Source: Streptosporangium album
GTDB lineage: Bacteria; Actinomycetota; Actinomycetes; Streptosporangiales; Streptosporangiaceae
Reading direction: 5' to 3'
Assembly (NCBI RefSeq): GCF_014203795.1
Contig: NZ_JACHJU010000001.1
Span: 2,046,001-2,110,000 of the forward strand
DNA: 64,000 nt
Part shown: positions 6,588 through 55,430 of the stretch, one piece after another
Numbering within the stretch: position 1 is the stretch's first letter
How the letters are laid out: every line of letters begins with the position of its first letter
Made by a program: the position numbers and the translations under genes
The notes under the pieces: generated by a model
What the model saw: only the letters and a program-made list of their open reading frames with translations
Databases searched by the model: none
What the model was told of the DNA's origin: nothing

Positions 6588-8390
6588 TCACTCACCGAGG
6601 CGGTCGGCCGCCTCCAGCCATTCGGCCTCGACGGTGTCCTTCTCGGCGATGATGTCCTTGAGCTCCGCGTCGAGGGAGGCCAGCCGGCCGTAGTCGGCGG
6701 CGGCGTCGGCCATGGAGGCGTGGAGTCTGGCCTCGCGGCTGCTCAGCTTGTCGAGCTGACGCTCCAGACGGGAGAGCTCCTTGCGGAGCTCGCGCTCCTC
6801 CTTGGCCGACAGGCCGGTCTCGGATGCCTGCGGGGCCGGCCCGGCGGGCGCGGGAGCCGAGGCGCCGGACGCCGCCCGGGCCGACAGCGCCGCCCCCGAG
6901 GCGCGCCGCGCCAGGTATTCGTCCACACCACCCGGGAGCATCGACAGCTTGCCGTCGCCGAGCAGCGCGACAGTCCGGTCGGAGACACGCTCCAGGAAGT
7001 AACGGTCGTGGCTGACCAGGATCAGCGTGCCGGGCCAGCCGTCGAGCAGGTCCTCCAGCTCGTTCAGCGTCTCGATGTCAAGGTCGTTCGTCGGCTCGTC
7101 GAGCAGCAGCACGTTCGGGTCGTCCATCAGCAGGCGCAGCAGCTGGAGCCGCCGCCGCTCGCCGCCGGACAGATCGCCGACGACCTTCCACTGGGCGTCG
7201 CCCTTGAAGCCGAGACGCTCCAGGAGCTGGGAGGCGGTCCACTCCTTCTTGCCGACCTGGATGAACTTGCGGATCTCCTCGACGGTCTCCAGCACCCTGC
7301 GGGTGGGATCGAGCTCGCCCAGCTCCTGCGACAGGTGCGCCAGGCGGACCGTCCTGCCCCGCACCACCCTGCCGGAGTCGGGCTGAACGGTGTCGGCGAG
7401 CAGGCGCAGCACCGAGGACTTGCCCGAGCCGTTCACCCCGATCAGGCCGATCCTGTCTCCCGGGCCGAACTGCCAGGTGGAGTGGTCCAGGACCAGCGGG
7501 CCCCGTCCGGGACCACCGGCGTGCAGGGTGACGTCCTCAAGGTCGTAGACCGTACGGCCCAGCCTGGCGGCGGCGAACTTGACCAGCTCGACGCTCTCCC
7601 GGGCCGGGGGCTCGTCGGCGATCAGCGCCTGGGCCGCGTCGATGCGGAACTTGGGCTTGGATGTGCGCGCGGGCGGACCCCGGCGGAGCCAGGCGATCTC
7701 CTTGCGCATCAGGTTCTGCCGGCGGGCCTCGGAGGCGGCGGCTACCCGGGCGCGCTCGGCCTTGGCCAGCACGTAGGCGGCGTATCCGCCTTCGTAGCGC
7801 TCGACCGAGCCGTCCACGACCTCCCAGGTCCGGGTGGAGACCGCGTCCAGGAACCACCGGTCGTGCGTGACGACCAGCAGCGCGGTCTTCCTGCCGGACA
7901 GGTGCCTGGCGAGCCAGTCGATCGCCTCGATGTCGAGGTGGTTGGTGGGCTCGTCCAGGATGATCAGGTCGTGCTCGCCGATGAGCAGCCTGGCGAGCGC
8001 CGTGCGGCGCCGCTCACCACCCGACAGGCTCGCGGCGAGCGCGGTGAGGTCGATGTCGCCGAGCAGGTTGGCGAGGATCTCGCGGATGCCCGCCTCGCCC
8101 GCCCATTCGTGCTCGGGCCTGTCGCCCAGGACGATCTCCTGCACCGACAGCGCCGGATCGAGGTCGTCCCCCTGCGACAGAGTCGCCACGTGGAGGCCCC
8201 GGTTGTGGGTGACCCGCCCGCCGTTGGGCTTGAGATCACCGGCGATCACCGAGATGAGCGTGGTTTTTCCGCCGCCGTTGCGGCCGACCACCCCGATGCG
8301 GTCGCCCGACTCGATGCCGAGGGAGACGTCGCGCAGCAGCGGCTTGGGACCGTAGGAGTGGGAGACCGACTCAAGGTTGACCAGATTCAT
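6588..8390 (-). CDS. ABC-F family ATPase
   Basis: A 600-aa soluble protein with two ABC domains and no membrane segments. The first has Walker A GRNGGGKTT (residues 37-45), signature LSGGERRRTAL and Walker B LIILDEPTNHLD; the second has GVNGSGKSS, LSGGERRRLQL and VLLLDEPTNDLD. About 80 residues connect them, containing the basic ABC-F linker. A C-terminal coiled coil (about 530-600, ELRKELSRLERQLDKLSSR) resembles Uup. ABC-F proteins bind the ribosome E site or act on DNA and translation; this subtype is probably a housekeeping Uup/EttA relative rather than an antibiotic-resistance factor. It follows ispE on the same strand after 27 bp. Confidence 0.93.
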   Translation of the reverse strand: MNLVNLESVSHSYGPKPLLRDVSLGIESGDRIGVVGRNGGGKTTLISVIAGDLKPNGGRVTHNRGLHVATLSQGDDLDPALSVQEIVLGDRPEHEWAGEAGIREILANLLGDIDLTALAASLSGGERRRTALARLLIGEHDLIILDEPTNHLDIEAIDWLARHLSGRKTALLVVTHDRWFLDAVSTRTWEVVDGSVERYEGGYAAYVLAKAERARVAAASEARRQNLMRKEIAWLRRGPPARTSKPKFRIDAAQALIADEPPARESVELVKFAAARLGRTVYDLEDVTLHAGGPGRGPLVLDHSTWQFGPGDRIGLIGVNGSGKSSVLRLLADTVQPDSGRVVRGRTVRLAHLSQELGELDPTRRVLETVEEIRKFIQVGKKEWTASQLLERLGFKGDAQWKVVGDLSGGERRRLQLLRLLMDDPNVLLLDEPTNDLDIETLNELEDLLDGWPGTLILVSHDRYFLERVSDRTVALLGDGKLSMLPGGVDEYLARRASGAALSARAASGASAPAPAGPAPQASETGLSAKEERELRKELSRLERQLDKLSSREARLHASMADAAADYGRLASLDAELKDIIAEKDTVEAEWLEAADRLGE

Positions 8391-9427: not shown

Positions 9428-10273
9428 CTACGCGCGGTTCTCGGCGATCCGCGCGAAATCCTCGACGGTGAGTTGCTCGCCCCGCTCCGAGGGGTCGATC
9501 CCGGCGGCGCGGAGCGCCTGCTCGGCGGCGGCGGCCGTACCGGCCCAGGAGGCCAGGGCGGCGCGCAGGGTCTTGCGACGCTGGGCGAAGGCGGCGTCGA
9601 CGACGGCGAAGACGTCCTCGCGGGCGGCCCTGGTCGAGGGCGGCTCGCGGCGCGTCATCGCGACGAGGCCGGAGTCGACGTTGGGGATCGGCCAGAAGAC
9701 CGTACGGCCGACCGGACCGGCCCGGCGGACGTCGGCGTACCAGGCCGCCTTGACCGAGGGGATGCCGTAAACCTTGGAACCGGGCCCGGCGGCCAGCCGG
9801 TCGGCGACCTCGGACTGGACCATGACCAGGATGGTGCGCAGGGACGGCAGGGTCTCCAACAGGTGTAACACCACCGGAACGGACACGTTGTAGGGCAGGT
9901 TGGCGACCAACGCGGTCGGCTTCTCCTGGGGCAGGTCGTCCGGCAGGACCCGCATGGCGTCGGCGAGCACGACGGTGAGACGGTCGGCGAACTCCGGAGC
10001 CCGCTCGGCGACGGTCAGCGGGAGCTGAGCGGCCAGGACCGGGTCGATCTCCACCGCCACCACGGCGCGGACCTCGGGAAGCAGCGCGAGGGTGAGCGAG
10101 CCCAGCCCGGGGCCGACCTCGATGACCACGTCGTCAGGCCGCAGCCCGGCGACCCGGACGATCCGGCGGACCGTACCGCCGTCGATCACGAAGTTCTGGC
10201 CGAGCTTCTTCGTCGGACGGATATCCAGCTTTTCCGCCAGATTACGTATCTCCACCGGACCCAGAAGGCTCAT
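9428..10273 (-). CDS. rsmA: 16S rRNA dimethyladenosine transferase
   Basis: RsmA (KsgA) dimethylates two adjacent adenosines in the 3' hairpin of 16S rRNA (A1518 and A1519, E. coli numbering). The 281-aa product has [13 protein letters not shown] at the N-terminus, the SAM-binding [15 protein letters not shown] (about residues 50-64) and the catalytic [16 protein letters not shown] motif that flips the target base. Length is normal. It is followed 107 bp later by ispE on the same strand. Confidence 0.96.
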
Positions 10274-46129: not shown

Positions 46130-46297
46130 CCCGCATTTCAGATCACCTTGTCGCAACACCCAGCCCGGAGCCGACATCGCCATGCCCAGCGACGCGAACT
46201 CCAACCTCCACCAGCGCCCTGACACCACCCGGGCCTTCCCGGACACCTGCTCCGCGGCTCCCAAACCAAGACGAACCCGATTCGGAAACTCCTGAAC
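45808..46297 (+). repeat. Direct repeat, interrupted copy (left part)
   Basis: This stretch aligns with 59097-59588. The alignment breaks at CTGAA/C just before the Tn7-like left end and resumes at 55340 with the rest of the repeat (GAAACGACAAGATCC). The other copy is uninterrupted at this point. Confidence 0.75.
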
Positions 46298-46342
46298 TGT
46301 TCTGTCGCAGCGAAGGTTGAGCGATTCTCATCGAAGTTTGAG
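46298..46342 (+). repeat. Tn7-like left end: terminal repeat and two TnsB-type sites
   Basis: After the 17-bp terminal repeat come CGAAGGTTGAG (46311-46321) and CGAAGTTTGAG (46332-46342), 21 bp apart, one strand face as expected for TnsB binding sites. The second lies inside the 3' end of tniQ. Confidence 0.75.
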
Positions 46343-46960
46343 TGATCGTGGCTCAGCTGCCTTCTGGCGTTGCTTCCGACGTTCTCGGTAGGCCCATACT
46401 CGGCACGCGTCTGAGCACCAGAGCCGAGGCAGACCACGGGGGTCGTCACGAGGCAGCAGAGCATCGCATCGCCCGCATCGTCGGTGCGGCGGTTGGCTGG
46501 CTCGGCGGCAATCGCGAGAGTACCAATGGGACGGAGCAGGCGAGGTGAAGGAAGTTCCGCATGCCTCACATGAGTTCACGATTGGCGGTTGAGGCGCTGG
46601 TCGGAAACGTTCGGAGTGGCGCTGGCGGTATGCCATTTGGCGGCAAGTGGCCGAACACCAGCGAACGGCTCCCTGTACTCCAAGGCGGAGCGGGGCGAAG
46701 CACCTCTCGCAGAGGAATCCGGCAAGGGTGCGCCGCAACACGTCCTGACTGCGGCCACTTGCGGCCGCGAGTCGGTCCAGCTGCGGGCGCCCTCGGAAAT
46801 CCGATGATCCCTGCAAGTGTGCCCGCAGGAGGTTTGGTGCGAGGTGGTTGGCGATGGCAAGGCGTTCAACGTAGGAGGCGACGCTCTCACCCCGGCGGGG
46901 GCGGATGTTGATGGGCAGACGGGCGGGTAGGCGGCGGTCGTCCGGGCTGCTGGGCGGCAT
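46328..46960 (-). CDS. tniQ: TniQ-family transposition protein with tandem zinc motifs
   Basis: A 210-aa protein. LPINIRPRRGESVASYVERLAIANHL (about residues 15-40) is the start of TniQ/TnsD N-terminal domains, which link target recognition to TnsC. After residue 80 three zinc-type modules follow: C84/C87/C102/C106, a degenerate C131/C134/C151, and C162/C165/C182/C186, each ending in a C-R-x-x-A-Y-R-like stretch (CRQMAYRQRH, CRVWAYRERR). It is much shorter than TnsD, so it lacks a large DNA-binding tail. It lies 27 bp after tnsC; its last codons overlap the transposon's left-end repeat. Confidence 0.75.
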   Translation of the reverse strand: MPPSSPDDRRLPARLPINIRPRRGESVASYVERLAIANHLAPNLLRAHLQGSSDFRGRPQLDRLAAASGRSQDVLRRTLAGFLCERCFAPLRLGVQGAVRWCSATCRQMAYRQRHSERFRPAPQPPIVNSCEACGTSFTSPAPSHWYSRDCRRASQPPHRRCGRCDALLPRDDPRGLPRLWCSDACRVWAYRERRKQRQKAAEPRSLKLR

Positions 46961-46987
46961 GCCGAAGGCCTTTCCGAGTCGGCGGGG

Positions 46988-48001
46988 TCAGTCGAATTCG
47001 GAGCCGTGGTCGAGCGGGACAGCCTCCAGGCCCTTCTTCGTGATCCTCTCGCTGCCGGCCAGGAGCGCGTCCAGGGCCGCCCCGCGGATCAGGTGGGACA
47101 GCGAACCGATCATGCCGCCGGTGCGCTGGTGCAGGTAGCGGTCCAAGGAGGTGAGGGTTCCGGGGCGGTGCGCGTGCAGGCGGAGCGCGTTCTCCAAGGT
47201 GGCCACCAGGCCCTGCCACTCGGCGTTGTAGGTCAGCGGCGCGGTCGGGATCAGGGTGAAGCGCCCGGCGATCTGCTGCCCGCGGGTGCCGTTGAACAGC
47301 CCTTCGCGCTCGACGTTGATCCCCGCATAGACGAAGGTCGCCGGGATTCGCTCCGAGAAGTACTTGAGCGTGTCGGCGACCTCTGCGCCGGAGCGGGTCG
47401 TCAGCGAGATGTTGTGCAGTTCGTCCACGAGCACCAGGCCCACCCGGGCGTCGATGAGGACGCCGCAGACCGACTCCAGAACGTCGGTGATGTTCGCCCG
47501 GGTGCCGACCGGCAGTCCCAGGAATCGCGCGAACTCCACTGCCATCATCCGCGCCGTGGCGGCGGGCGGGACGGTGATGTAGACGACCGGGATGCGGTCG
47601 CTCACGCCCGGGTGGCGGGCCCGGTCCAGCAGTTCGTGGGCGAGGCCGAGTTGGGTGATGGCGGTGGTCTTGCCCGTGCCAGCCGGGCCGGAGATGATCA
47701 GTCCGCGGCGGGCGCTGACCGCGTGCCGGTTCAGCAACATCAGGCGCCGCCCGCAGATGGTCGTGTGCTTGATGGTTGAGGTCGCCACCACCAGCAGTCG
47801 GGTGTGGTGGTCGATCCGCTCCTCCTCGTAGCGGGTGCGCTCGGCCGGAGAGAGCGCGTCGCGGTCCGCGTCGGACAGCAGCACGGGGATCGAAGGCTGG
47901 TCGGCGACGAAGACTCGCCAGCCCGGCAGGCTCGTCAGGTGACGGTCCGGCTCCCTCAGTTCGTCGGCGGATGGGGGGCGCGGGGCGGAAGGGCGGGTCA
48001 T
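46988..48001 (-). CDS. tnsC: TnsC/TniB-type AAA+ transposition ATPase
   Basis: A 337-aa AAA+ regulator that links target-site proteins to the transposase. Walker A is GPAGTGKTT (residues 105-113), Walker B LVLVDELHN (190-198) with the catalytic acid in DE, and a sensor-like FVYAGINVE follows. Length is nearer TniB than Tn7 TnsC (about 555 aa). The start overlaps the tnsAB stop by 4 bp (ATGA), indicating coupled translation and balanced dosage. Confidence 0.9.
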   Translation of the reverse strand: MTRPSAPRPPSADELREPDRHLTSLPGWRVFVADQPSIPVLLSDADRDALSPAERTRYEEERIDHHTRLLVVATSTIKHTTICGRRLMLLNRHAVSARRGLIISGPAGTGKTTAITQLGLAHELLDRARHPGVSDRIPVVYITVPPAATARMMAVEFARFLGLPVGTRANITDVLESVCGVLIDARVGLVLVDELHNISLTTRSGAEVADTLKYFSERIPATFVYAGINVEREGLFNGTRGQQIAGRFTLIPTAPLTYNAEWQGLVATLENALRLHAHRPGTLTSLDRYLHQRTGGMIGSLSHLIRGAALDALLAGSERITKKGLEAVPLDHGSEFD

Positions 48002-50886
48002 GAAGACTTCCAGGGGTCGGCGAGCGGATCGAACAGTCCCAGCGGGATCACCTCGGCCAGCGGCTTGTCCTCACCCGCGGTCTCCTCGGCATCAAGCTCG
48101 GGCTCCGGGGCCGGCGGTGGGGTCGGGACGGGTTGGGCGGTTTTGGCGCGGGCGGCCACGCGCTTCTCCCGGCGTGTGCGCTTCTTCGGCTTCGCCCCGC
48201 CGTTCTCCGCGTCCTCGGGGCCTGCGTGGGCGCGGGTGAGCAAGGCGGCGCCCGCGTCCGCGATCTCCGCCTCGGTGCCCTCGGGCAGTTCACGGGCGGC
48301 GTGGTCCCAGGCCAGTTCCCCGAACGGGACGGGGGTGTGGCGCAGGTGCTTCCAGGTGGCTTCCAGCCATTCGCCGTTGCCGTGGTGGTTGCGTACCCAG
48401 ATGCGGGAGATGTCGTAGGGGTCGTGGTGGACCTCCCACAGGCCCTTCTTCGCCGTGACACCGGAGTGCTGACGCCGAATCAGACCCGGGCCGTCGTAGG
48501 TGCGCCGCTTGATCTTGATGCCGTAGTCGTTGACCGCCCGCCAGGTCGCCGGCAACAGTTCGATGTAGTCGGTGGCGCTGAGCGCGACTGGAACGTAGCC
48601 GCAGGCCTCCACCAGCGCGGCGTACTTCTCGTTCGATGTGAAGGACCTGCCCGGGTGCAGCGGGTCGCGTAAACCGTTGTGTTCGCGGTTCTGCCACGAC
48701 GCGATGAGCCATTCGTCGAGAAGCTCCTGCAACTCCAGCAGCGACCACAACCGCCGCTCTTCCAGGTTCCGGCCGCGGTGGTCGGTGCTGCGGCCGGTGA
48801 ACCCGGACACGAACTGAGCGAAGAGCGTGCCGACGGAGTCGAGCATCTTCTCCACGTGCCCCTTCTGGAACGGGGACGCCTTGTGCGTGGGCTGAAAGTC
48901 GATTTCCAGGAAGCGGCAAGAGGCGCGGAAGCTGTGGGAAACGAACGCTTTGCCGTGGTCGCAGACGATCATCTCTGGCACGATCACCGGCTGCGCGGCG
49001 GCGTGCTCCAGCCGCTCGTCCAGCCTCAGTAGCCGGCGGTGCGGCAGCACCGAGTGCGACATCCTCAGCGCGTCCACCCAGCCAGGCCGCATCAGCTCCG
49101 GCGTGACGGTGCGAGCCAGCAGTACGCTCGCATCCACCGCCTTCGTGGTGGGCCGCAGCACCGCAGCGGTCACGGTCCTGGTCGCGACATCGATCATGCC
49201 GGTGAGCTCGATCTTCCCGACCACGCCGTCGTCGAGACGGACCAGCACGTCCAGCGGGGTGGAGTCGATCTGTACCACCTCGCCCGGTGCGAACACCGTC
49301 CATTGGCCGAACGGTGCCTTCGCGCCGTGGGCGCGGGAGCGGCGGGCGCGAGCCGTGCCCAGGGCGTGCGTGCCCTGGGACAGCTTCGCCAGCAGCCGGT
49401 AGAGCGTCGCCTTCGACGGCAGTTCGACCGACGCACCCCGCTCGCGCAGGATCTCGCCGGTCCGCCAGATGATGTAGGTGCCGGTGCGGGTGGAGTCGTC
49501 CTCCCCTTCCTTGATCGCCTGCCGCATGGCGGCTACGACCGCGTCGCCCACCGACCCGAACTGCGGCTTCTTGCGGACCGGTCTCCGGTCCGCCAGCCCC
49601 AGCACCCCCTCGGCCTGGTAGCGGCGACGGAAGTTGCCGACCGTGCTCACGCTGACCTGGTGCCCCGCTGTGGTCAACTCGGCCGCCTTGGCCCGCTCGC
49701 GGGCGGTCAGCGAATGGCGGGCCGGGTCGTACTCGGGGCGAGGCCGCGCATCCTCGGCCACCTCAGGCCTCGTGCCGTGCAGAACCTCCAGGATGTGCCC
49801 CTCCCACCACAGAGCCTTCTCCACTGCATGCCGGGGCATCGCCTCCAGCAGCGAAAGCGGAGGGAGAGGCATCCGGACTGGGCTGGCGAACACTTTGAAG
49901 TCCGGATCTCCCAGCAGTTCCCCCAGCAGAACCTCACGCGCGGGTCCCTCCTCATCGGCCAGCGTCACCGCCCTTGCGGACACTGCGAGCACCGCCCGCA
50001 CCTGCCCGGCGAACCGCACCCGTTCACCCACCCCGATCGAGGCCGGCCGCGACAGCTTGCTCATCTCGTTCCTCCCGCCGTCCATGCCCCGTCCGCGGTC
50101 TGCAAGGACGCCCCGCGTCCCAACCCCAGACTCCAGGACAGCAACGGACCCGTCCGCCGTGTGCACCATGGTGCCGCTGCTCAGCAGACAGGTGTGCAAA
50201 TCCACCCGCAGCACACCAGCCCACAACAGGTGAAACAGCGTTGGCAGCACCGACAGCACATCGCCGACCTCCTCCGCACCTGCCCGCAGCGGAGTCGGCC
50301 GACGAAAGACCCTCTCCAGGCGCCCAACCACCTCGTCGCGGACGCATCGCGCGTGCCGGTAACGGGCCAGCCAACGCACGTTCGCCATGAACATCGGGTC
50401 AGGGACGCCCAGATGCTCAAACTCCCAGCCGACCGCCGCGCAGGCCTCGGCCGTGCCTGCGAACGCCTCCGCAGTCCGCTCGTTCACCTGGTCCGCAGCG
50501 CGGACATCAACCACCCTCGCGCGGCCATCCGCCAACCGTACGAAGTAGTCGGGCGCGTGACGACGAGCGTCGCCATCACGCCAGTGCAGCCAAAACGGCT
50601 GCGAGGCGATCCCCACCACCTGCGGATCGAAGTCCAGCAGGATCAACCGGTCCCGCTCCAGCCAGGATTCGTAGCCGACATGGTCGCCGGTAGTTGCTGA
50701 CCAGTACCAGCCGGCGAAGCCCCGGCCTCCCTTGGCCCAACGGAACCCCCGCACCGGCCGCACGTGCTCGAACCGGACGCTCCAGCCGTCGCCTAACCGG
50801 GTCCGCAGCCGCCGCTCGCCATCGAAGAAGTCCAGGTCGAAGGCGCTGAGCACAGGGTCGCCGTACGCACCTGCCTGTTCCCTCAA
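47998..50886 (-). CDS. tnsAB: TnsA-TnsB fusion transposase
   Basis: A 962-aa protein. Residues 45-170 resemble the TnsA endonuclease: E73 in GYESWLERDR, D113 in HAPDYFVRLADG and D127-V-R129 in ARVVDVRAAD; the lysine of the QxK/ExK motif is arginine here. TnsA cuts the 5' ends. After a linker, a helix-turn-helix region (about 390-430) precedes the DDE integrase core with D541 (QIDSTP), D643 (CDHGK) and E679 (HVEKM), spacing D-102-D-36-E as in TnsB/MuA, which cuts and joins the 3' ends. A Mu-type C-terminal barrel and tail follow. The fusion should give cut-and-paste rather than replicative movement, if the TnsA half is active. Confidence 0.9.
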   Translation of the reverse strand: MREQAGAYGDPVLSAFDLDFFDGERRLRTRLGDGWSVRFEHVRPVRGFRWAKGGRGFAGWYWSATTGDHVGYESWLERDRLILLDFDPQVVGIASQPFWLHWRDGDARRHAPDYFVRLADGRARVVDVRAADQVNERTAEAFAGTAEACAAVGWEFEHLGVPDPMFMANVRWLARYRHARCVRDEVVGRLERVFRRPTPLRAGAEEVGDVLSVLPTLFHLLWAGVLRVDLHTCLLSSGTMVHTADGSVAVLESGVGTRGVLADRGRGMDGGRNEMSKLSRPASIGVGERVRFAGQVRAVLAVSARAVTLADEEGPAREVLLGELLGDPDFKVFASPVRMPLPPLSLLEAMPRHAVEKALWWEGHILEVLHGTRPEVAEDARPRPEYDPARHSLTARERAKAAELTTAGHQVSVSTVGNFRRRYQAEGVLGLADRRPVRKKPQFGSVGDAVVAAMRQAIKEGEDDSTRTGTYIIWRTGEILRERGASVELPSKATLYRLLAKLSQGTHALGTARARRSRAHGAKAPFGQWTVFAPGEVVQIDSTPLDVLVRLDDGVVGKIELTGMIDVATRTVTAAVLRPTTKAVDASVLLARTVTPELMRPGWVDALRMSHSVLPHRRLLRLDERLEHAAAQPVIVPEMIVCDHGKAFVSHSFRASCRFLEIDFQPTHKASPFQKGHVEKMLDSVGTLFAQFVSGFTGRSTDHRGRNLEERRLWSLLELQELLDEWLIASWQNREHNGLRDPLHPGRSFTSNEKYAALVEACGYVPVALSATDYIELLPATWRAVNDYGIKIKRRTYDGPGLIRRQHSGVTAKKGLWEVHHDPYDISRIWVRNHHGNGEWLEATWKHLRHTPVPFGELAWDHAARELPEGTEAEIADAGAALLTRAHAGPEDAENGGAKPKKRTRREKRVAARAKTAQPVPTPPPAPEPELDAEETAGEDKPLAEVIPLGLFDPLADPWKSS

Positions 50887-51068
50887 CGTCTCTCCTGGAA
50901 CTCAAGCGTCCCTTCCGAGTGAAGTTGGCGGGAGGGACACGCGCTGACTTGCGGCACGTCACCTTGGTTCGGACGGTTCCGAACGCAGTCGTTCAGGTCT
51001 TCCTGTCGGTGAGAAGGTGTCTCCGCTGACCACGACACGGAGACATCACGACCCTGGGGCACTGCTAG

Positions 51069-52519
51069 TAGTACTTCGTTAGATTGTCGATCACCTAGCG
51101 TGATCATTTTGAGAAGTCACTTCGGGATCATGTTGTCGTGACACCTGACGAGATGGCGCCGGTGCGCCCGCGGCTTGAGAAGTTTGCAGATCAGATGCTG
51201 CGGAGGGTGCTTCGTCGCCGTGATCAACTCGCCACCGGCGAGTTGTATCTGCGGGGGCTGATGCTGGACGGGCGGCGCAAGTCGATGGATCCGATGGCGG
51301 AGCGTCTGGGAGTTGACACCCAGCGGTTACAGCAATTCATGGCCGACTCGACCTGGGACTACGAACCGGTCCGGGAAAACCTCACACATTGGGCGCTGGA
51401 ACGGATCGGTCCGCAGGCGGTCGTCATCGACGATGTCGGCTTCCCCAAGGACGGCCCGAATTCTCCGGGAGTGGCCCGGATGTATTCCGGGACGCTGGGC
51501 AAGACCGGAAACTGCCAGATCGGCGTCAGCGCACATCTGGTCACCGATCATGCCTCGTCCGCGGTCAATTGGCGGCTGTTCATCCCCGAGTCGTGGGACC
51601 CGGCCAAGATCGAGGATCCGGTTCAGGCGGAAACGGTCCACAAGCGCCGCGACCGGTGCAAGATCCCTCAGGACGTCGGTCACCAGGAGAAGTGGCGACT
51701 GGCGTTAAACATGATCGACCAGATGTACGACGAGTGGGGAGTCGGCACCGATCTTCCGGTGGTCTTTGACTCCGGTTATGGCGATTGCACCGCTTTCCGG
51801 CTGGGACTGGAGGACCGCGGCCTGTCTTACGTGGCGGCCGTCTCCGATGATCTGTCGGCCTACCCCGGAGATGCGGTGCCTGAACTGCCGGAATACAGCG
51901 GCAAGGGGCGCCCGCCGAGACCACGCTATCCAGGCAAGCCATCGAATCTGCGCAATCTCGCATTGGCGGCAGGGCGGGCGAATCTGCGGCGGGTGACCTG
52001 GCGGCAAGGCACAAGGAAGACCAGCGGTAATCCAGGCGCGAAAATGCGATCACGCTTCATGGCTCTACCGGTTCTCTTGGCCAACAAAGACATCCCCCGC
52101 AACCCCGACGGCAGCCTGCCTGCGCGTTTGCTGCTGGTGGAATGGCCGGCAGGCGAATCCGAACCCACCGATTACTGGATCACCAATCTCCCCGCCGAGA
52201 CTCCGCTGCGCGAACTCGTCCGGCTCGCCAAGATCCGCTGGCGGATCGAGCATGACTACCGGGAGCTCAATACCGGTCTTGGCCTCAAGCATTTTGAGGG
52301 GCGGAGCTTCTTCGGCTGGCACCGCCACGTCACCCTGGCCGCATTAGCGCAGGCATTCTGTACCGAACTACGGCTAGACCCAAAAGTCCCTGCGCCGGCC
52401 TGACCTTGTATGAGGTTCTCGGCGAACTCCAGGCTTTACTCGCCACCTGGACCGGCGCTTGCCACGTATGCCATCAAATGTACGCGCCCCATAACACTTC
52501 GTAACTTAACGAAGTACTA
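51069..52519 (+). mobile_element. IS701-family insertion sequence
   Basis: The ends are perfect inverted repeats TAGTACTTCGTTA, flanked on both sides by the 4-bp duplication CTAG (51065-51068 and 52520-52523), the known target pattern of the family. It has entered the Tn7-like element between the tnsAB start and the cargo gene and looks intact. Confidence 0.9.
51138..52403 (+). CDS. IS701-family transposase
   Basis: A 421-aa DDE transposase of the IS701 (IS4-related) group. VVIDDVGFPKDG holds the first catalytic aspartate, VVFDSGYGDCTAFRLGLED the second, and the Y-(2)-R-(3)-E-type region WRIEHDYRELNTGLGLKHFEGR the glutamate. No frameshift or stop is visible, so it should be functional. It lies in a complete element with perfect ends and target duplication. 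Confidence 0.93.
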   Translation: MTPDEMAPVRPRLEKFADQMLRRVLRRRDQLATGELYLRGLMLDGRRKSMDPMAERLGVDTQRLQQFMADSTWDYEPVRENLTHWALERIGPQAVVIDDVGFPKDGPNSPGVARMYSGTLGKTGNCQIGVSAHLVTDHASSAVNWRLFIPESWDPAKIEDPVQAETVHKRRDRCKIPQDVGHQEKWRLALNMIDQMYDEWGVGTDLPVVFDSGYGDCTAFRLGLEDRGLSYVAAVSDDLSAYPGDAVPELPEYSGKGRPPRPRYPGKPSNLRNLALAAGRANLRRVTWRQGTRKTSGNPGAKMRSRFMALPVLLANKDIPRNPDGSLPARLLLVEWPAGESEPTDYWITNLPAETPLRELVRLAKIRWRIEHDYRELNTGLGLKHFEGRSFFGWHRHVTLAALAQAFCTELRLDPKVPAPA

Positions 52520-52583
52520 CTAGGGCTCAGCGTCATGGTCACGGCGGTGGTATGCGATGCCGGCCCCGCTCAGCCTCGCGCGC

Positions 52584-53318
52584 CTATTCGTCCACGTCCG
52601 GATAGTTCGACTTGCGCGCCAGCCACCACCAGCCGTCACCCAGCCGGCTGCACCACCAGTAATCGTCGAACGTGGTCGCGGTGAGATCACAGGGACTTAC
52701 CCGCGCGGCGTCAGGCCGGTCATAGATGTAGAGGAACATGTTCTCCGACACTTCCTCGTTCGACAGTCCCATCATGAGAACACGTCCGGGATAAAGCTCC
52801 ATCGGTACATCCTGCGTACTGAGATGATCAAAATGCAGGACATCGAATTCATCAGGCAGACGCACCCAGCCACCCGAAGGCATGTCCGCCGACAGCTTCC
52901 TGTCCTTGGCCAGCTGGGCCAGCGCGGTGAACTTGCCGTGATGGACCGCGAACCACGTACGCCCGAAGATCCCGTTCCAGGGCAGCAGCACAACGGCGGC
53001 ACACAGAACGACCGCCGCACCGACCGCGACGTAACCGCGGATGTCACCACGTCGGCGTATGAGTCTCTGCGCCCACCACGACGTGGAAAGCACGGCCACG
53101 ACGAACACGATCCCAAGGATCAGCTGCTCGATGATCCGATCGTAGTACTCCAGCCACAGCAGATACCGTCCAGTCACGACCACGAGCCAGCTCGCCACCA
53201 TGGTCGCGGTCAACGCATGCGATCGCTTCTCGATCACGCCTCCAGCCCCGGTCGGCGAGCACTGCTTCACGTGAGGACGGCCTCCCGCCAACCTGTGAAC
53301 CCAACTCGCGCACTGCAA
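52584..53318 (-). CDS. Hypothetical membrane protein, transposon cargo
   Basis: A protein of up to 244 aa with three or four helices in its first half (MVASWLVVVTGRYLLWLEYY, LILGIVFVVAVLSTSWWAQRL, YVAVGAAVVLCAAVVLLPW) and an exposed C-terminal domain ending in DDYWWCSRLGDGWWWLARKS. I recognise no family. The true start may be GTG at VIEKRSHALTA, after GGAGG. It is the only non-transposition gene left between the Tn7-like ends, so it is the candidate cargo. Defence-island-like membrane effectors often look like this, but nothing proves such a role. Confidence 0.6.
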   Translation of the reverse strand: MQCASWVHRLAGGRPHVKQCSPTGAGGVIEKRSHALTATMVASWLVVVTGRYLLWLEYYDRIIEQLILGIVFVVAVLSTSWWAQRLIRRRGDIRGYVAVGAAVVLCAAVVLLPWNGIFGRTWFAVHHGKFTALAQLAKDRKLSADMPSGGWVRLPDEFDVLHFDHLSTQDVPMELYPGRVLMMGLSNEEVSENMFLYIYDRPDAARVSPCDLTATTFDDYWWCSRLGDGWWWLARKSNYPDVDE

Positions 53319-53424
53319 CCCGCCTCATCTAACGGGACACCGCACAACCCGCGGCCCTCCGCGACGTACCAGACCTCGAACGCGCTGTCGGTGAGGCGCA
53401 ACGGACATCAAGCCCCAGCAGTCA

Positions 53425-53465
53425 CTCAACCTTCGGTGAGACACCGTAGCCGTCATCAACCTTCG
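53425..53465 (-). repeat. Tn7-like right-end TnsB-type sites (inner)
   Basis: CTCAACCTTCG (53425-53435) is the exact inverse of the left-end CGAAGGTTGAG; TCAACCTTCG recurs at 53456-53465. The terminal site CTCAGTTTTCG lies at 55316-55326, separated by the later IS5-like insertion. Confidence 0.7.
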
Positions 53466-53575
53466 ATGACAATGAGATCGTTCCAACTTGAAGTTGCTGG
53501 TCAGGGGCCTGGTGTGATCCGTTGAGGGCATGCTCTGGCTGGTGGTGGGTACTGATCATGGTGGGTGATCATCGG

Positions 53576-54355
53576 TCAGCGGGTGTGTTCGGTGATGGCC
53601 AGGACCATCAGCGCGCGGAGCAGCTTGGTGACGTGGATGGCGTCCAGGCGGAGCTTGGTGAGGATGCGCCAGGCCTTCAACGTGGCGAAGCCGTGCTCGA
53701 CGGGGGCGCGTTCGGCGCTGATGAGCCGGTTGACCTGCTTTTGCGCGGGGGTGAGGGGCCTGCCGCGGGTGGCTTTGCGGCCGGTGATGATGACCGGATT
53801 GTCGTCATCGTCGTCCAGGCCGACGAAGCCGAGGTCGGCGATAGCGCCCAGCCCGGCCTCGCGCAGGCGGGCGGTGAGGCGGTTGTGCCGGGCGGTGGTG
53901 ATCTCCGATGCGCGACCAGGCCGGACGGCGGAGACCCACAGCAGGTTGCCGCGGGTGTCGGTGAGCGCCACCACGAGCAGCCCGTGGGCCTTGTGCTTGC
54001 CCGAGTAGTTCCTGCGGTTGTCGGCTCCGGTGCGGCGGCGGGTGCGGATCAGGGTGCCATCCAGCAGGACGACCTCACCACCGGCTTTGGCGATCTTCTT
54101 CAGGGCGCGGTCCAGGCGGGGTGCGCGGGCGGCGAGCAGTTCGACGGTCTCCAGCATCCAGCGTCGCACGGTGGAGGCCGAGACGTTGTTGGCGCCGGCC
54201 ATGTCGGCCAGGCGCTGGTCATGGCGTAAGACGGCCAGCACGATGGTGGCGATCTTCCCGGCGGGCAGTTTCCGCCAGCGCGAGCCGATGGTCTTGAGAT
54301 GAGCGCGCAGCAGGTCGGCCAGGAAGGTGAGGGTTTGGGTGGACAGCGGCAGCAT
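53576..54355 (-). CDS. IS5-family transposase (DDE_Tnp_4 type)
   Basis: A 259-aa transposase. An N-terminal helix-turn-helix region (NNVSASTVRRWMLETVELLA) precedes the DDE core: D in VVLLDGTLIRTRRR, D in AIADLGFVGLDDDDD, and E in ISAERAPVEHGFATLKAWRIL. ATG 54355 (MLPLSTQTLTFLADLLRAHL) is the usual start for this group; the frame is open to 54466 with a threonine-rich, unlikely extension. It seems intact. Confidence 0.85.
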   Translation of the reverse strand: MLPLSTQTLTFLADLLRAHLKTIGSRWRKLPAGKIATIVLAVLRHDQRLADMAGANNVSASTVRRWMLETVELLAARAPRLDRALKKIAKAGGEVVLLDGTLIRTRRRTGADNRRNYSGKHKAHGLLVVALTDTRGNLLWVSAVRPGRASEITTARHNRLTARLREAGLGAIADLGFVGLDDDDDNPVIITGRKATRGRPLTPAQKQVNRLISAERAPVEHGFATLKAWRILTKLRLDAIHVTKLLRALMVLAITEHTR

Positions 54356-54543
54356 GCAGGAGTAGACAGGCGAGGGCGTGTCTTCGGCGGACGTCGAAGC
54401 CTTCGACGTTGTCGATGTCGTGGTTTTGGTTGTGGTCACACGCCGCCAGGCCCCCGCCGGGGACACGCTCGGGATGTTTCACCCGGGCAGGGCCTGGCCA
54501 GGGGCTGCGGGAAGCGGCAGTGGGCGCAGTGGGCCGCCCGAGG

Positions 54544-55092
54544 TCAGGGGGCGAACGCGCCGCTGGGGGTCTTGCGCAGCCAGCCCCGCTCGGCCAGCCG
54601 GTTCAGCTTGGCCCGCACGCCTTCGACCTGCCCCGATTCGGTGGAAAGGCTGAGCTGGGCGCAGATCGCCTTGCAGATGAGGGGGCCGTCGGCGGCGCGT
54701 ACCGCGGCCAGTAGCGCCTGGTAGTCGGCGGGCAGCTCATCAGTGCCGGCAGCGTGGTGACGGTGCGGGATCAGCAAACCGCCGGGCACGGGCACGGACG
54801 CGGGTACGGGTACGGGTATGGGGCGCAGCTCTATCCCCTGGGAGGCCTGCTCTGCTGCCTGGGCTGGGGTGAGCATCACCTGGTAGAACGGCGTCGGCTC
54901 ACCGCCGGGCTCGCCGGGTGCGTTGAGCTGCTCGGCGGGATCGTCGGCGAGGAGTTCCTTGACCACCTGCTCGGCCACACGCAGCCGGTCCATCTCGTCT
55001 TCGGTCTCGGCCAGTTGCTCGCGCAACCGATCGGCGTGCGTGCCCAGCGCGACCAGGCGCATGGTGATGCGCTCCAGCAGCGGCGACGACAT
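54544..55092 (-). CDS. Coiled-coil and winged-helix protein, insertion-sequence associated
   Basis: A 182-aa protein. Residues 1-55 form a coiled coil (THADRLREQLAETEDEMDRL), a proline-rich linker follows, and residues 120-182 form a winged helix (EGVRAKLNRLAERGWLRKTP). ATG 55092 follows GGGGGAAG. It precedes the IS5-like transposase on the same strand, so it may be that element's regulatory first gene. Function is inferred from position only. Confidence 0.6.
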   Translation of the reverse strand: MSSPLLERITMRLVALGTHADRLREQLAETEDEMDRLRVAEQVVKELLADDPAEQLNAPGEPGGEPTPFYQVMLTPAQAAEQASQGIELRPIPVPVPASVPVPGGLLIPHRHHAAGTDELPADYQALLAAVRAADGPLICKAICAQLSLSTESGQVEGVRAKLNRLAERGWLRKTPSGAFAP

Positions 55093-55322
55093 GGCTTCCC
55101 CCGGCCGACAAGACAACGATTACCTGGCGAGATCACCAGGACACGGACGATAACGACCCCAGGCCGGGCAGCGCAGACGAAAGCCGGAAGATCCACATTT
55201 GCCCCCGGCGGACGATCGAGACCCATGATCCCAGCCGTCTACCAGGAGAGAGCACACTCAACACCGCCAGGCCACCCCCTCCGACCTGCGAGGACAGGAT
55301 GGAACTAGCTCAATGCTCAGTT

Positions 55323-55339
55323 TTCGCTGCGACAGGACA
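55323..55339 (-). repeat. Tn7-like right terminal repeat
   Basis: TTCGCTGCGACAGGACA, the inverse of the left terminal repeat with one mismatch, ends in ACA and is followed by TGAAA. Confidence 0.8.
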
Positions 55340-55430
55340 TGAAACGACAAGATCCCGCCCGATCGCGATGATCAGACGGGATCCCGTCAACTACAGCCCA
55401 GCCGTTTCAAGAACGGCCCTTGGCGGGGTG
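55340..55430 (+). repeat. Direct repeat, interrupted copy (right part) with hairpin
   Basis: Matches 59585-59669 closely. It contains GATCCCG (55351-55357) and CGGGATC (55377-55383), a hairpin reinforced by inner GATC pairs, probably a transposase-gene terminator. Confidence 0.75.

Follow-up and report, generated by a model that had tools for sequence, protein, structure and literature searches.

A damaged Tn7-like element of Streptosporangium album and the attachment sites of its small relatives

A stretch of 64,000 nucleotides from the S. album genome (the window) holds a Tn7-like element at 46298-55339 with a fused transposase, a TnsC ATPase and a single TniQ. How does such an element select its targets? 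The initial annotation had presented it as complete and as the strongest candidate for an undescribed system, and left target choice open. A comparison with relatives, based on sequence, suggests that a fixed distance to one of two conserved promoter sequences is how part of the family picks its targets. The window element itself is a damaged member of this family.

Ends, genes and damage of the window element

The features of the element and of its insertion site are listed by position.

46293-46297, no strand: left target duplication, TGAAC (TGAAA in the paralogue)
46298-46342, plus strand: left end with tip TGTTCTGTCGCAG and TnsB-type sites at 46311-46321 and 46332-46342
46328-46960, minus strand: tniQ, 210 aa, TniQ core (PF06527) followed by three CxxC...[C/Y]SxxC units
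46988-48001, minus strand: tnsC, AAA+ ATPase (TniB/AAA_22 by Pfam) with Walker A and B motifs
47998-50886, minus strand: tnsAB, single-chain TnsA-TnsB transposase of 962 aa (Pfam, NCBIfam)
51065-52523, plus strand: IS701-family insertion upstream of tnsAB, transposase at 51138-52403
52584-53318, minus strand: ORF of 244 aa, the sole candidate cargo gene, with no family above cut-off
53425-53465, minus strand: right-end TnsB-type sites 3 (53425-53435) and 2 (53455-53465), about 1.85 kb inside the terminus
53475-55310, minus strand: inserted IS of 1,836 bp, found by copy comparison, with the duplication CAATG at 53470-53474 and 55311-55315
55311-55339, minus strand: right end with its tip and TnsB-type site 1
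55340-55344, no strand: right target duplication, TGAAA
59090-59668, plus strand: uninterrupted paralogue of the insertion site by sequence alignment, a transposase-remnant repeat

When the flanks of the element are joined and aligned to the uninterrupted paralogue farther along in the window, 519 of 579 positions agree, and the paralogue has TGAAA at the junction; both ends, 46298 and 55339, are therefore correct to the base, as had been claimed. The proposed 17-bp inverted ends agree at 16 of 17 bases by eye and form part of a 25-nt inverted repeat (46298-46322 and 55315-55339, 84% complementary). For the 5-bp duplication TGAAC/TGAAA the claim stands for the right copy, which equals the paralogue; the left copy differs and, judging from this alignment, probably arose by mutation. 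The repeat around the element resembles the remnant of a transposase gene when its translations are read by eye, and pieces of this repeat are found again at other places in the genome. An inverted sequence, GATCCCG...CGGGATC, was also seen by eye in the flank, 12-44 bp from the right tip.

The TnsB-type repeat CGAAGGTTGAG is not enriched across the window, where 12 copies with at most two mismatches compare with 15.9 expected; what carries the information is where the four copies with 0-1 mismatch lie and which way they point. Such repeats had been reported at both ends. This holds for the left array, which the 3' end of tniQ overlaps, and for right-end site 1, but sites 2 and 3 have been cut off by the 1.84-kb IS, which leaves the outermost site alone at the right terminus. 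A site array of its own at this terminus was rejected because the IS splits the array. When the IS is removed in silico, the right-end sites lie at 0, +20 and +51 (by eye), the same as in the relative L040.

The gene content named earlier, a fused TnsAB with TnsC and one TniQ, was confirmed by profile searches. TniB/AAA_22 in TnsC and the TniQ domain score above the Pfam cut-offs, the TnsA part matches the actinobacterial TnsA-like model NF033179 of NCBIfam with 297 bits (cut-off 110), and TnsAB has further Pfam matches to rve, below its cut-off, and to Mu-transpos_C. The TnsB catalytic residues D541, D643 and E679 are aligned to D, D and E in 99/99, 98/99 and 98/98 hits, respectively. For the TnsA part the catalytic residues are E77, D113 and D127-x-R129; among the aligned hits (window 48001-50886 and relatives) E and D are conserved, and 99 of 103 have Arg at the nuclease-motif position where Tn7 TnsA has Lys. 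The element thus combines a DDE transposase with a Mu-type C-terminal domain, a TnsA endonuclease, TnsC and TniQ with TGT ends, arrays of transposase sites (the right one interrupted in this copy) and a 5-bp duplication, as Tn7-like elements do.

In the second zinc-ribbon-like unit of TniQ a Tyr replaces a presumed zinc-binding Cys. The AlphaFold model of this protein (pLDDT 85, pTM 0.46) gave no match at E <= 0.001 in a fold search against the PDB, the best hit being the TniQ of a type I-B CAST with E 0.22. Pfam scans of seven element ORFs revealed neither cas genes nor TnsD or TnsE. No CRISPR array is seen in the 20 largest direct-repeat families of the window, a family list and not a CRISPR-specific search, and to this extent the earlier statement that CRISPR and cas are absent holds. 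The 244-aa ORF sits between the right-end sites and tnsAB; it has no second copy in its own genome and a plasmid search gave no match. The same genome contains two more diverged Tn7-like transposase sets, at G000:C4:214554-217191 and G000:C1:292636-295022 (about 47% and 30% identity).

What did not survive is the description of the element as complete. The IS at the right end encodes an IS5/DDE_Tnp_4-type transposase (53576-54466) and a further ORF (54544-55116), and 15 more copies of about 1.84 kb with 100% identity are present in the genome; its junctions were compared across eight copies, the one in the window included. The region from 53.5 to 55.3 kb was therefore rejected as cargo. The IS701-family insertion has 17-bp inverted ends, CTAG included, and four further full-length copies in the genome. 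Without both insertions the element would measure about 5.7 kb. In a complete copy the right end would be unbroken and all the genes seen in near relatives would be present; here the IS interrupts the right end and one of the two tniQ genes of several near relatives, the one called TniQ-A below, is missing, so that the TniQ complement consists of type B only. At present this copy is probably immobile by itself.

Ends and size of the relatives

Seventy-five relative loci, the majority with Streptomyces in the title, were drawn from GTDB contigs. Matches, which differ in length and similarity, were found in 35 of 200 genomes from the family to which the window belongs (its own genome included), in 44 of 150 Streptomyces genomes when a shorter query was used, and in 255 plasmid records. 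An end profile was built on eight tips, two of which are those of the window element. It gave 177 hits in 1,557,072 bases of the loci and the window, compared with 8 in 616,755 bases of 60 single-base-shuffled sequences. A search of genomes for related transposases and ends, as the initial annotation had proposed, finds like end sequences at homologous genes in many relatives.

Element calling on 105 sequences (104 loci and the window; 1,937,204 bases) yielded 48 elements, including four identical pairs (L052/L217, L062/L205, L070/L199, L090/L214) that were kept unless stated otherwise. An exact 5-bp duplication flanks 43 of the 48; pair calling gave a bonus to matching duplications, and duplications beside weak tips are thus not independent proof. 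These 43 elements have a median length of 5,834 bp, and 31 of them do not exceed 6.6 kb. Both tips reach at least 19.6 bits in 23 elements, 18 of which are also no longer than 6.6 kb. The tip on the TnsAB side lies 84-136 bp ahead of the estimated tnsAB start in 43 of the 48. The single-chain TnsAB was rejected as a mark of the whole family, with single-frame hits in six loci and the window.

One contig (L043, 1-4926) spans exactly one element from tip to tip, and its record name states a coverage of 242, which suggests a multicopy element. At four loci (L049 at 9801-9807, L063 at about 6685-6694, L044 at about 100-134, and L201) tip-like sequences that belong to another Tn7-like element are found within a few bases of the tips, which looks as though the two had one attachment site in common.

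Attachment sites and TniQ types

Two short sequences, S1 and S2, recur beside the element ends, where tips of at least 7 bits were accepted. The S2 core TCTCGACATCGAGA occurs 16 times in the 105 sequences (1,937,204 bases) and adjoins an element end each time, the identical pair L062/L205 being counted. In 13 of these rows the S2 midpoint is 50-56 bp from the tip; in L094 and L097 the tip is unrecognised and the third site lies at 101-102 bp, and in L038 the tip has decayed. All 11 occurrences of S1, [T/C]CCGATATATCG, in the same sequences are located 40-46 bp from a tip. Of 20,000 random positions in these sequences, 409 (2.0%) had an outward tip no more than 115 bp away; for a limit of 60 bp the count was 237 of 20,000 (1.2%).

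By profile match, each at one locus, the gene beyond S2 is the aconitase gene acnA (L042) and the gene beyond S1 encodes a PadR regulator (L046). S2 with its flank was detected in 101 of 101 Streptomyces genomes, as a single copy in 94, and the reversed control gave 0. It is located upstream of acnA in 20 of 20 loci examined out of 109 matches; two of these 20 score at least 12 as tip-like and may thus not be empty. No paper on acnA as a target was found in the literature searched. The gene that follows the S2 core in L038 is a different one, taken to encode a VOC-type protein, and therefore it may be the operator as such that is recognised. In the genome of the window element, neither exact nor one-mismatch matches to the S2 core ATCTCGACATCGAGAT occur, and all 19 matches listed have two mismatches (control, 2). 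With one of the two attachment sites present in every Streptomyces genome searched, target choice becomes directly testable with small elements.

Fifteen of the 48 elements (14 of 44 without the four identical copies) are inserted at S1 or S2 and 33 at neither. The two sites account for target choice in a large minority of the family, and for this part the question left open by the initial annotation is answered by two promoter sites, those of acnA and padR. This answer does not extend to the window copy, whose flanks contain neither S1 nor S2 and which has no end 40-56 bp from a site midpoint. A third flank motif, GGCAGAC[A/G]GG[A/C], is near a tip in 10 of its 18 occurrences and is the only one of the three motifs at 6 of the 33 remaining elements; the other 27, the window element among them, have none. 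This motif was seen close to the TnsAB-side tip in L067, L068, L076, L060, L090 and L214. Upstream of 9877 in L039 a long palindrome, which begins 35 bp away from the tip, precedes a ribbon-helix-helix gene and may be a further operator target.

The TniQ proteins were sorted into three types: type A consists of the core and a C-terminal part taken by eye as a helix-turn-helix, type B of the core and 2-8 tandem zinc-ribbon-like units (a zinc array), and type C comprises other, classical-looking forms. In the near relatives L035, L036, L038 and L042 an A-like tniQ is followed by a type B gene, the A-like gene being truncated in L035; in L037 type A alone is visible before the contig ends. The window TniQ, of type B, is closest to the second TniQ of L042 (57%), followed by that of L122 (45%). 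S1 hosts elements of all three types, and architecture does not map onto site in a simple way. That the number of zinc units alone fixes the target was rejected, as elements with 4, 5, 6 and 8 units are all found at S1.

A link may exist between the TniQ type and the orientation at the sites. At S2 the TnsAB end is presented to the site in 15 of 16 rows, the exception being the zinc-array element L063. Type A genes are found in most of these TnsAB-facing rows, with none on the L061 contig and fragments in L097 and L203. At S1 seven elements with a zinc array only present the TniQ end, and L080 (zinc array), L202 (A), L087 (C) and L095 (zinc array and C) present the TnsAB end. For both sites together the TniQ end faces the site in 8 of 9 zinc-array-only elements; the exception is L080, whose flanks lack a clean 5-bp duplication, and this count leaves aside L095 with its zinc array and classical TniQ as well as L036, L038 and L042 (A and B), all of which face the site with the TnsAB end. 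If this link is true, it informs the layout of the complex that TniQ, TnsC and transposase form on the target.

Within the clade of the window element, type A and an adjoining S2 are found together in L036, L037, L042 and L038. In the window element, L122, L035 and L039 the type A gene is missing, truncated or was not detected, and none of these has S2. The link is based on these eight loci; L048 and L058 could not be scored. Its weak spots are L038, with a decayed right tip and a type A gene without a normal N-terminus, and L037, whose type A gene is cut by the contig end.

Probable homing by TniQ and comparison with known systems

The account that we favour as a whole, and consider likely, is that of a cut-and-paste Tn7-like element from an actinobacterial TnsA-like group, part of which would home by TniQ; the copy in the window would have lost its selector and then been damaged. 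By analogy with Tn7, TnsAB would bind the repeated end sites and cut, TniQ would pick the insertion site, and TnsC would connect TnsAB to the target-bound TniQ. From the fixed distance to S1 or S2 in a large minority of elements it follows that their TniQ is probably a TnsD-like homing protein; placement comes from the comparison, and reading of the DNA would fall to TniQ. As type A is present with S2 and no intact type A gene is seen without S2 in the window clade, we infer that TniQ-A is the S2 homing selector and was lost by the window copy. This copy may have reached the transposase remnant via TniQ-B or by relaxed targeting, and the two IS would have struck after insertion.

A different agent could act at S1 and S2, namely a host factor or a state of the DNA (a bound regulator, RNA polymerase or replication) that is contacted by TniQ or TnsC. 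A host regulator bound at the site is conceivable because three kinds of TniQ share S1, at nearly equal distances and in two orientations, and because the closely similar (by eye) zinc-array TniQs of L085 and L063 belong to elements at S1 and S2, respectively. However, it is two particular short sequences that recur and not promoters in general, and L063 is stacked beside a type A element that may have come first at S2. We regard a host factor as unlikely, though it deserves to be kept in mind.

Less probable still is that the window copy works as it is, with its zinc-ribbon TniQ alone directing it to the transposase remnant and the IS being tolerated. Its transposition ORFs are open and the catalytic residues are kept, the inverted sequence lies beside the right tip, and L122 likewise has a zinc-ribbon TniQ alone and is inserted at neither S1 nor S2. 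However, the IS puts 1.84 kb between the right tip and sites 2 and 3, the second zinc unit has lost a cysteine, and the element is single-copy though sequences like its flanks recur in the genome. That unrelated inverted repeats merely surround a defective gene cluster, as the imperfect duplication and the lack of repeat enrichment across the window might suggest, is close to negligible, being already contradicted by the paralogous empty site and by the many relatives in which homologous genes have similar ends.

Within TniQ homing, the orientation data allow a tentative and somewhat doubtful idea: unlike TniQ readers (helix-turn-helix, arrays of 2-8 zinc ribbons and classical forms) may have converged on the same conserved bacterial operators, at equal distance and with opposite ends, the architecture of the selector setting the orientation of the complex. 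If this were true, transposition would have a natural protein guide of a new kind in the zinc-ribbon array. With their ends and attachment sites defined, the elements of the family could also yield site-specific integration tools for antibiotic producers.

Among known systems, CAST have TnsC and TniQ in common with this element and some have a fused TnsAB; unlike in CAST, no cas gene was found among the seven ORFs and no array among the repeats viewed. With Tn7 of E. coli (described in Faure et al. 2023; PMC10293859), the element shares the TnsA/TnsB/TnsC logic, arrays of TnsB sites and a 5-bp duplication, and part of the family also inserts at a constant spacing from a conserved site in the chromosome. 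In difference to Tn7, TnsA is fused to TnsB, a TnsD of usual size and TnsE were not found, and the sites of the family are located upstream of acnA and padR instead of at glmS, with the window copy in a transposase-remnant repeat. The dual TniQ-TnsD elements in the same paper (PMC10293859) likewise have two TniQ-type genes each, and TnsF of Tn6022 also has several zinc fingers. Here, 2-8 tandem zinc-like units are fused to a TniQ core, the paired TniQs of near relatives are both short, and no TnsF-like protein was noticed among the ORFs listed.

The family also resembles a TnsB clade dominated by Actinobacteria, clade 2 of Benler et al. (2021; PMC8649781), with which it shares an actinobacterial Tn7-like transposase, TnsC and TniQ and to which it may belong. 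The existence of this clade and of an NCBIfam TnsA-like model limits the earlier claim of an undescribed system, which stands insofar as no member of the clade had been experimentally characterised according to that paper. The clade medians given there range from 14 to 29 kb, compared with a median of 5.8 kb for the 43 relatives with exact duplications, and two target sites can now be named. The window copy is at neither. For the Tn7-like elements of actinomycetes, the comparison of insertion sites among relatives that had been proposed at the outset establishes where the ends lie and what size is typical, and names two attachment sites.
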